DNA from: Bacteroidota bacterium
GTDB lineage: Bacteria > Bacteroidota > Bacteroidia > UBA8524
Assembly (NCBI GenBank): GCA_016124735.1
Contig: WGMZ01000001.1
Span: 1 to 64,000 of the forward strand
Reading direction: 5' to 3'
DNA: 64,000 nt
Below, piece after piece: positions 35,043-37,978 of this stretch; within the stretch, counting starts at the first letter, position 1, and every line of letters begins with the position of its first letter. The notes beneath the pieces were generated by a model. That model ran no database searches and was not told the DNA's origin. It was given only the letters and a program-made list of their open reading frames with translations. The translations under genes were made by a program, and so were the position numbers.

Positions 35043-35049
35043 AAAGTAA

Positions 35050-35074
35050 AAGCCGGTGATTAGCCGGCTTTTTT
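35050..35074. terminator. Bidirectional terminator between PKD gene and rng
   Basis: AAGCCGG (35050-35056) and CCGGCTT (35064-35070) form a 7-bp stem with TTTT after it on the plus strand and a T-rich TTTACTTTTT on the minus strand. It sits between two convergent stops only 34 bases apart and can serve both. Confidence 0.85.
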
Positions 35075-35075
35075 G

Positions 35076-36626
35076 TTAAAGAATAATTTCTTCTCCTACT
35101 TCATTCAGGAAGTAATATTCCCCCAGATGATAACTTTGATCTTCAGTTACCCGAATTCGGGTGCGGTATTTCCACATCCATTTCCAGTGAAGTGGCGGGA
35201 AACCATGACGCATGTATGCCGCAATGTAAGGATGAGAAATAATGGTCAGTTTTTTAAGATTGAGGGTATTAATCAGATATTCAAGTTTTTGTTGAATTTC
35301 ATCTACCATCAATATACTGGAACCGATCTCACCGGTACCTTTGCACATAGGGCACTCTTCTGAAGTGACTACGTTCATCTCCGGACGTACCCTCTGACGG
35401 GTAATTTGAATCAGGCCGAACTTAGACATTGGCAATATAGTATGCTTTGCCCGATCGTTTTTCATTGCCTCTTTCAGTCGCTCGTAGACTTTGCGTTTGT
35501 TGGATGCATTGCGTTGATCAATGAAGTCGATAACAATAATGCCTCCCATATCGCGGAGCCTTAATTGACGTGCAATTTCATCTGCGGCTTCCATGTTTAC
35601 ATTCAGTGCATTCGATTCCTGATCGGCATCGGTGGTCGCTTTACTTCCGGAATTGACATCAATTACGTGCAGCGCTTCTGTATGCTCGATTACCAGATAG
35701 GAACCACCCTGTAAGGAAACATTCTTTCCAAAGGATGCCTTGATTTGTTTGTTGATCCCGAATTGATCAAAAATGGGCAGTTTCCCAGAATAAAGATTAA
35801 CAATCTTTTCGGATTCAGGAGATACCTTTTTGACATAACTCTTCAGCTCATCATGGAGTGTCGGGTTATCGGTAACAATATTGGTAAAGTTCTCATTCAA
35901 TAAATCGCGAATGTGGGAAGATGATCGGTCTATTTCGCTTAATATGCGTACCGGAGGTTTCGCTCCCTGGAGATTTTTATAAATGGTTTGCCATTTCTCC
36001 TGGAGCGTCATTAAATCTTTGTGAAGTTCTGCAACGGGTTTTCCTTCTGCTACCGTTCTTACAATCAATCCGAAATTTGCCGGTTTGATACTCAATGAAA
36101 GGTTGCGAAGGCGATTGCGCTCTTCGAAAGACTTGATTTTTTTGGAAATAGAAATCTGATTGGCAAAAGGAACCAGCACCATGTACCGGCCCGCCAAAGA
36201 GAGTTCTGAACTAATCCGGGGTCCTTTGCTTGAAATCGGTTCTTTCTGAATCTGTACCAGAATCTGTTGATTCTTACTCAGTACCTGATCGATTTTACCA
36301 GTTTTAATAATATCGTCTTCAAGTTCGAAATCCTGTAGGCTTTCTGTCTTGATGCCGCCCTGAAGACGGTACTTGGTAAATTTATTCAGTGAACGGATTT
36401 GCGGTCCTAAATCGTGGTAATGCAGAAACGCATCCTTTTCGTATCCTACATTTACAAAAGCAGCATTCAGGCTGGGCATGATTTTACGCACCTGGCCCAA
36501 ATAGATGTCTCCAACAGAAAAATTATTTTGATTTTTTTCCTGATGGAGCTCTACAAGTTTTTTATTGCGGATAAGGGCTATCCAGACCCCGGACGAATCG
36601 GATTGAATTATCAACTCATTCGACAC
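35076..36626 (-). CDS. rng: Ribonuclease E/G family endoribonuclease
   Basis: The 516-residue enzyme cuts single-stranded A/U-rich RNA and matures rRNA. An S1 domain (about 38-130) contains an insert of roughly 35 residues at 80-115. The catalytic domain has the metal-binding D323 (HVIDVNSG) and D367 (VIDFIDQRN), and the Zn-link CPMCKGTG (425-432) joins subunits. It lacks the long scaffold tail of RNase E, so it is the RNase G form. It closes the operon HU-TPR-small basic protein-rng, a gene order I recall as common in Bacteroidota. Confidence 0.95.
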   Translation of the reverse strand: MSNELIIQSDSSGVWIALIRNKKLVELHQEKNQNNFSVGDIYLGQVRKIMPSLNAAFVNVGYEKDAFLHYHDLGPQIRSLNKFTKYRLQGGIKTESLQDFELEDDIIKTGKIDQVLSKNQQILVQIQKEPISSKGPRISSELSLAGRYMVLVPFANQISISKKIKSFEERNRLRNLSLSIKPANFGLIVRTVAEGKPVAELHKDLMTLQEKWQTIYKNLQGAKPPVRILSEIDRSSSHIRDLLNENFTNIVTDNPTLHDELKSYVKKVSPESEKIVNLYSGKLPIFDQFGINKQIKASFGKNVSLQGGSYLVIEHTEALHVIDVNSGSKATTDADQESNALNVNMEAADEIARQLRLRDMGGIIVIDFIDQRNASNKRKVYERLKEAMKNDRAKHTILPMSKFGLIQITRQRVRPEMNVVTSEECPMCKGTGEIGSSILMVDEIQQKLEYLINTLNLKKLTIISHPYIAAYMRHGFPPLHWKWMWKYRTRIRVTEDQSYHLGEYYFLNEVGEEIIL

Positions 36627-36662: not shown

Positions 36663-36752
36663 TTATTTCTTCTTATGTCTGTTTTTTCTCAGTCTCTTTT
36701 TTCTTTTGTGCGTTGCGATCTTATGTCTTTTTCTTTTTTTTCCGCTTGGCAT
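36663..36752 (-). CDS. 29-residue Lys/Arg/His-rich protein, probably ribosome-associated
   Basis: A complete ATG-to-TAA frame on the minus strand encodes 29 residues: 11 Lys, 8 Arg and 4 His, with no acidic residue. The N-terminus reads MPSGKKRKRHKIATHKRKKR. It lies 36 bases before the rng start and 7 bases after the TPR gene stop, in the same direction. I recall near-identical short basic peptides in other Bacteroidota, often unannotated. The composition is that of tiny ribosomal proteins such as bTHX or bL36, so an rRNA-binding role is inferred. It might be the extra small protein bL38 reported in a Flavobacterium ribosome structure, but I cannot confirm that from memory. Confidence 0.75.
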   Translation of the reverse strand: MPSGKKRKRHKIATHKRKKRLRKNRHKKK

Positions 36753-36759
36753 ATGTCTT

Positions 36760-37584
36760 CTATTTTAAATGTTTAATAATATCGTCTAATTGCTCCTGAA
36801 CCTGCAGATCACCGCTGAGGTCCCTGCACTTGCTGTAATAACTGATTGCCAGTTCTTTATTTCCCATCATCTCGCAAATTCTTCCTGCCTGAAAATGGTA
36901 CTCAGCATTGGAGGGCTGCAAAGATATTAATTTTTCAAATCTTATCAATGCCTTGTCTAATTGACCGGATTCTATGGCCAACATGCCCAGGGTATAGTTG
37001 GCAAGAATATTAGCACTGTCGCTGCGAACTACATTGAGCAATAGTGGCACGGCCTGCATCATTGTTTCTCTTTTGTCGGCAAGGGCCAATCCTTTGTATA
37101 AAGTAGCCGTTTTGTTTTCGGGTTCAGATTTTAACTGTTCATCGAAACAAGCTATTGCCTCCGCCATAAGAAAATCACGACGGTTTGTGTCTTGCATTTG
37201 AACTCCGTAGGTATAGATATACCTTCCGGCCATCTCCCAATCATTTGCCAAATTGGTTTTTTTGGCTAATTGCAGTTGAAAATATGCGGCCAGGCTGGTA
37301 TAGCTGTTCTGTAAAGAAAATTCTACGGATTTGCGAAGTGAGGTGCTGTCCTCGTGAGGAATGACCAATTTCCCCTGTTCGCTTTTGATAATACTTTCTG
37401 GAATGGAAAGACCCTGGATTTCATTTGACAGGGTTTTAAACCAATTCATGTTGGTGTTTCTTGGAACCGTGGACTCCGTGTTAATGGTGGCCCCCGATCG
37501 GTTCAAGTTGTTCCAGCTTAGGGCTAGAACAATAAAAAGGCAGGCTGCTCCTAGAAGCAGCGCAACCTGTTTTTTATCACCCAT
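36760..37584 (-). CDS. Membrane-anchored TPR protein downstream of HU
   Basis: The 274-residue protein has one N-terminal membrane helix (about 7-24) and a periplasmic or cytoplasmic body with at least four TPR units in the C-terminal half (LYKGLALADKRETMMQAVPL; ANYTLGMLAIESGQLDKALI; AEYHFQAGRICEMMGNKELA). It begins 2 bases after the HU stop and precedes the small basic gene and rng, so it is part of that operon. Function unknown; it may hold complexes together. Confidence 0.75.
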   Translation of the reverse strand: MGDKKQVALLLGAACLFIVLALSWNNLNRSGATINTESTVPRNTNMNWFKTLSNEIQGLSIPESIIKSEQGKLVIPHEDSTSLRKSVEFSLQNSYTSLAAYFQLQLAKKTNLANDWEMAGRYIYTYGVQMQDTNRRDFLMAEAIACFDEQLKSEPENKTATLYKGLALADKRETMMQAVPLLLNVVRSDSANILANYTLGMLAIESGQLDKALIRFEKLISLQPSNAEYHFQAGRICEMMGNKELAISYYSKCRDLSGDLQVQEQLDDIIKHLK

Positions 37585-37586
37585 TT

Positions 37587-37886
37587 TTATAGGAGTTTCT
37601 TCGTAGCCTCAGACTTTTTCACTTTGTCTGCAAAAGTCTTGGCAGGCTTAAACTTGGGAATATAGTGGGCTGGAATTTCCATTGCAGTATTTTTGGAAAT
37701 GTTCCGAGCAATTTTCTTCGCTCTTTTCTTCAACACAAAACTTCCAAAACCACGGAAATAGATGTTGTTACCTTCCACCATAGAATTTTTCATTACTTTG
37801 AAAAAGGTTTCAACCGTTTGTTGAACTTCTGCTTTGCCTATTCCGGTTCTGTTTACGATTTCGTTGATTACCTCGGCTTTAGTCAT
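37587..37886 (-). CDS. HU family DNA-binding protein
   Basis: The 99-residue histone-like protein has the two N-terminal helices MTKAEVINEIVNRTG...VEQ and the beta-arm region FRGFGSFVLKKRAKKIARN. The arm normally bends DNA; here it ends in IPAHYIPKFKPAKTFADKVK. A short basic tail follows. It is the first gene of the HU-TPR-small protein-rng operon and is divergent from mutY. It compacts and bends DNA as a dimer. Confidence 0.93.
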   Translation of the reverse strand: MTKAEVINEIVNRTGIGKAEVQQTVETFFKVMKNSMVEGNNIYFRGFGSFVLKKRAKKIARNISKNTAMEIPAHYIPKFKPAKTFADKVKKSEATKKLL

Positions 37887-37949
37887 AATATTAAGATAAA
37901 ATATTGAAATTGAGTCTTTTGTAAATGTTTTTTTCCTCCAAAAGGGCTA

Positions 37950-37978
37950 CAAATTTAGCCTTTTATATTGGGATTCAA
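37950..37978 (-). promoter_or_regulatory. Promoter of the HU-rng operon
   Basis: On the minus strand TTG (37978-37976), 18 bases, TAAATTTG (37957-37950). The -7 box lies in an inverted repeat (AAAGGGCTA...TAGCCTTTT, about 37940-37964), which could be an operator. Confidence 0.55.

Follow-up and report, generated by a model that had tools for sequence, protein, structure and literature searches.

A 29-codon gene preceding rng in Bacteroidota is a copy of the known gene for ribosomal protein bS22

We identify a 29-codon frame in the window, i.e., the whole stretch of 64,000 nucleotides analysed, as the Bacteroidota copy of bS22, an already known and structurally solved protein of the small ribosomal subunit. 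The assignment draws on matches to chains of solved ribosomes, on conservation and on selection. We regard it as almost certain that the frame encodes this small, basic 30S protein, which would be made from an HU-TPR-bS22-rng transcript and would lie as a bent helix in the pocket formed by h27, h44 and h45, from where it would reach H67/H68 of the 23S rRNA as an intersubunit bridge. Because bS22 has already been seen in solved ribosomes, the frame is an ordinary gene that is readily overlooked rather than a novel one.

The frame and its match to ribosomal chains

The bS22 gene (36663..36752, minus strand) is an intact frame that runs from an ATG start at 36752 to a TAA stop and is translated as MPSGKKRKRHKIATHKRKKRLRKNRHKKK. 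It starts 7 bases past the end of a gene for a TPR-repeat protein (36760..37584, minus strand), the sequence of which is poorly conserved, and stops 36 bases ahead of rng, a gene of the RNase G/E family with a GTG start (35076..36626, minus strand). The frame thus occupies the 133-base gap between the TPR stop (36760) and the rng start (36626), and coordinates and strand agree with the initial annotation, which had described a complete frame in the correct direction in a gap of this size. The same annotation had called the product almost all Lys, Arg and His without acidic residues; the absence of Asp and Glu holds, while "almost all" was a slight overstatement for 11 Lys, 6 Arg and 3 His (20/29 residues, 69% basic).

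The first gene of the apparent operon encodes an HU-type DNA-binding protein (37587..37886, minus strand) and is the conserved upstream neighbor of bS22. Upstream of HU lies a promoter-like site of the Bacteroidota type, TTG-N19-TAAATTTG (37949..37978, minus strand), recognized by its match to the consensus, and a terminator-like hairpin (35048..35072, minus strand) directly follows rng. A second promoter-like site, TTG-N19-TATCTTTG (36919..36948, minus strand), lies some 170 bases ahead of bS22, within the TPR gene. It is kept in 5/5 fetched family members and overlaps a conserved run of TPR codons; this site may be an internal promoter for bS22-rng. No Rfam family was found in the HU-TPR-bS22-rng operon.

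Several lines of evidence identify the product as bS22. First, in a phmmer search of PDB chains, the only matches among sequences of solved structures were three ribosomal chains, each covering residues 1-28 or 1-29: 7jil_5 (E 2.3e-10; "30S ribosomal protein S22", also deposited as L38), 9i5v_10 (E 4.4e-10; "AURKAIP1/COX24 domain-containing protein") and 8fmw_V (E 3e-6; "30S ribosomal protein bS22"). Structure 7jil is the 70S ribosome of Flavobacterium johnsoniae, and the initial annotation had pointed to the extra small proteins of Flavobacterium ribosomes as a comparison; the full-length match to 7jil_5 answers it. Second, a profile built from seven sequences, those of 7jil_5, 9i5v_10 and 8fmw_V among them, retrieved the same three chains at E 1e-15 to 8e-14 and nothing else from the PDB chains. 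Third, the window protein has the features of the Bacteroidota/spirochaete type of bS22, i.e., a length of about 28-31 residues, a very basic composition and the pattern MPxGxKRKxxKxxTHKRKKxxxxNRHKK. Over its full length it is 90% identical to F. johnsoniae bS22, with coinciding start and end; the substitutions are I12 to V, L21 to A and K23 to A, and the chain in the structure has 30 residues vs 29. To Borrelia burgdorferi bS22 (8fmw_V, gene bb0822) it is 75% identical over 28 residues. The Borrelia protein has been described as a short basic helix in the same ribosomal pocket, in a paper that also describes F. johnsoniae bS22 and the similarity of the two (PMC10618245); it differs in having RKLKK in place of RKRHK in the N-terminal half, in its GTG start and in that adjoining HU and rng genes were not detected.

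Family models gave no name to the protein. Searching the 29-residue product against Pfam and NCBIfam returned no family, in line with the expectation that the gene is easily missed in annotation, and PF08213 (COX24_C), run over the relatives, gave no score above its cut-off; by the Pfam gathering score the window protein is therefore not a member of the COX24_C/mS38 family. Because Pfam also misses the accepted bS22 proteins of F. johnsoniae and Borrelia, we consider this a limit of the models, and it is the matches to ribosome chains that identify the protein as bS22. PF08213 does match Mycobacterium smegmatis bS22; the query sequence used for the latter was confirmed by its match to deposited bS22 chains. 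Since the searched models miss the subfamily, annotations based on these models may lack bS22 or give it no name.

Actinobacterial bS22 (M. smegmatis, Cutibacterium acnes) and mitochondrial mS38/AURKAIP1 occupy the same ribosomal pocket according to publications, and mitochondrial mS38 and eukaryotic eL41 have been regarded as the equivalents of bS22 (PMC10618245; PMC10085706). However, neither direction of search gave a significant sequence match between these PF08213 proteins and the window protein, and the bS22-subfamily profile did not reach the actinobacterial chains among PDB chains. C. acnes and F. johnsoniae bS22 are reported to be 37% identical (PMC10085706). The relation of bS22 to mS38 is thus a published structural argument that our sequence tests neither confirm nor exclude. 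Eukaryotic/archaeal eL41, compared by publication only, is likewise a short basic helix in an equivalent pocket but is shorter and lacks the bend (PMC10618245).

Gene order and the link to RNase G

In the class of the window organism, the surroundings of bS22 are strongly conserved. Among the 30 loci of a first search within the class, rng lies downstream in the same direction in 30/30, so that relatives do keep the frame beside rng, as had been anticipated, and HU lies upstream in 29/30; most of them also have a recognizable TPR gene, in many cases at low identity. Across all 58 loci compared, HU is present in 48 and rng in 45. The loci without rng all stem from a phylum-wide search, and several loci outside the class have bS22 with HU but without rng, or without both; L044, L055, L057 and L058 keep HU only, and in three genomes of genus g110 (L159-L161) HU-bS22 is kept with no rng in the fetched flank. 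HU is, therefore, the more widely kept neighbor of bS22, and rng is a class-level neighbor.

This pattern bears on the possibility that the peptide is a nonribosomal RNA-binding partner of RNase G that, for example, delivers or protects rRNA during 16S 5'-end processing. The invariable position of bS22 directly upstream of rng in the class sample is what such a partner would predict. However, bS22 adjoins HU without rng in the loci outside the class named above, genomes without bS22 still have rng, no rng was detectable near the spirochaete copies, and the F. johnsoniae and Borrelia orthologs have been modelled as parts of the ribosome. Moreover, an RNase G accessory should accompany rng as an adjacent gene wherever rng occurs, which bS22 does not. 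Because adjacency to rng is a class-level feature and HU is more widely kept, the functional link is weakened, and we consider an RNase G partner very unlikely. Thus, of the earlier proposal of a conserved rRNA-binding protein of the phylum, either ribosomal or RNase G-linked, the ribosomal part is borne out by the full-length match to bS22 chains, with an rRNA site published for relatives, while the RNase G function gains no support, HU often being kept without rng outside the class.

Binding site and proposed role

Published ribosome structures show bS22 as a basic, bent helix lodged in a pocket that h27, h44 and h45 (also h2) of the 16S rRNA form; it makes an intersubunit bridge by touching H67 or H68 of the 23S rRNA and is located next to the neck, the pivot of the 30S head (PMC10618245; PMC10085706). 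By analogy with these relatives, we suggest that bS22 of the window organism is made from the HU-TPR-bS22-rng transcript, that its bent helix would occupy the h27/h44/h45 pocket and that it would reach H67/H68 to form an additional intersubunit bridge. Its position beside the neck and the decoding region suggests that bS22 stabilizes the junction between 30S head and body as well as 70S association. The near-invariant basic residues of bS22 fit direct contact with rRNA.

An additional function as a cationic antimicrobial peptide outside the ribosome has been proposed for C. acnes bS22, which, when added externally, inhibited bacterial growth and cell-free translation (PMC10085706), and the window peptide is also short, with 69% basic residues. 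However, inhibition in such assays is expected from many very basic peptides, the gene encodes no signal peptide, its neighbors (HU, TPR and rng) are not export genes, and bS22 is vertically kept and operonic. Hence, we find it very unlikely that the window protein acts in this way besides its role as ribosomal protein bS22.

Conservation, loss and occurrence beyond the phylum

The expectation that the protein is conserved across Bacteroidota, verifiable by a tblastn-type search, proved correct. A protein search detected bS22 in 40/40 genomes, i.e., the window's own and 39 relatives of its class, nearly all from other families, each with a single match free of internal stops, and in a phylum-wide search 289/297 Bacteroidota genomes encode bS22, nearly all with one match. 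Nearly every genome of the phylum has thus retained one vertically transmitted copy of bS22. At the 58 loci compared, the start codon is ATG in 58/58, and third codon positions differ in 50% of comparisons while second positions differ in 1.4%. Changes are almost only silent, as a comparison of synonymous and nonsynonymous change had been expected to reveal for a translated frame: pN/pS is 0.058 (pN 0.054, pS 0.93), which is an order-of-magnitude figure only because pS is near saturation and in which pN is somewhat lowered because the 58 loci are the best-matching ones. The frame is, therefore, a real protein-coding gene, far beyond chance; that it is a chance open frame without product in a low-complexity gap, as its mere 29 codons and strongly biased composition could suggest, is refuted by amino acid conservation throughout the phylum alongside saturated silent change and can be dismissed.

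Eight of the 297 phylum genomes gave no bS22 match, even when a profile was searched with E values of up to 10 allowed; two of the eight (G283 and G326) are fragmented assemblies. Within genus g110, three species (L162, L163 and L164; genomes G309, G321 and G262) lack bS22 and three (L159-L161; G116, G285 and G186) have it. In the latter, bS22 lies between HU and a convergent gene of 216 residues; in the former, the same convergent gene follows HU directly with no bS22 frame in between, and the contigs are unbroken there. In family f66, 3/3 sampled genomes (G234, G230 and G182; loci L062, L063, L064 and L167-L169) are without a bS22 match, and the fetched loci have a GC content of about 0.64-0.67. 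We consider it likely that bS22 was secondarily lost in several Bacteroidota lineages, the three g110 species lacking it at the very junction where three congeners keep it. Because some lineages are without the gene, bS22 is not indispensable throughout the phylum. If this loss is real, close relatives with and without bS22 provide a natural test of its function. We considered whether loss of bS22 marks acidic proteomes adapted to salt and rejected this: the RNase G homologs of the three f66 genomes are acidic (pI 5.2-5.5), whereas those of the three g110 genomes without bS22 are basic, at pI 9.2-9.6, which argues against a common cause.

Beyond the phylum, a DNA pattern search of viral contigs yielded no bS22 copy, and neither did a search of phage records, in which the low-complexity filter may hide such a query. 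A wider occurrence of bS22 has been predicted, and the GTG start of the Borrelia gene noted (PMC10618245). With a DNA pattern designed for spirochaete bS22, we retrieved 78 loci (L078-L155); their titles name spirochaetes in nearly all cases and unassigned bacteria in the others, and 78/78 carry a bS22 sequence. The gene is widespread among spirochaetes. The start codon is GTG in 74 of them, ATG in three and TTG in one; this uniformly kept non-ATG start might be regulatory.

Two individual loci deserve mention. One class member (G021, contig C20; L074/L065) has a divergent bS22, MPCGRKRKLRKVKRHKFKKRRRKNRHKKKKV, directly before rng, and the N-terminal half of this protein resembles the spirochaete form. 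In genome G067 (L157), bS22 forms the end of a 444-codon open frame (minus strand, 1492-2826). Because the plus-strand frame that overlaps it (1858-2667) resembles an alpha/beta-hydrolase gene, a fusion is unlikely, and the long frame is probably just an open frame in high-GC DNA.
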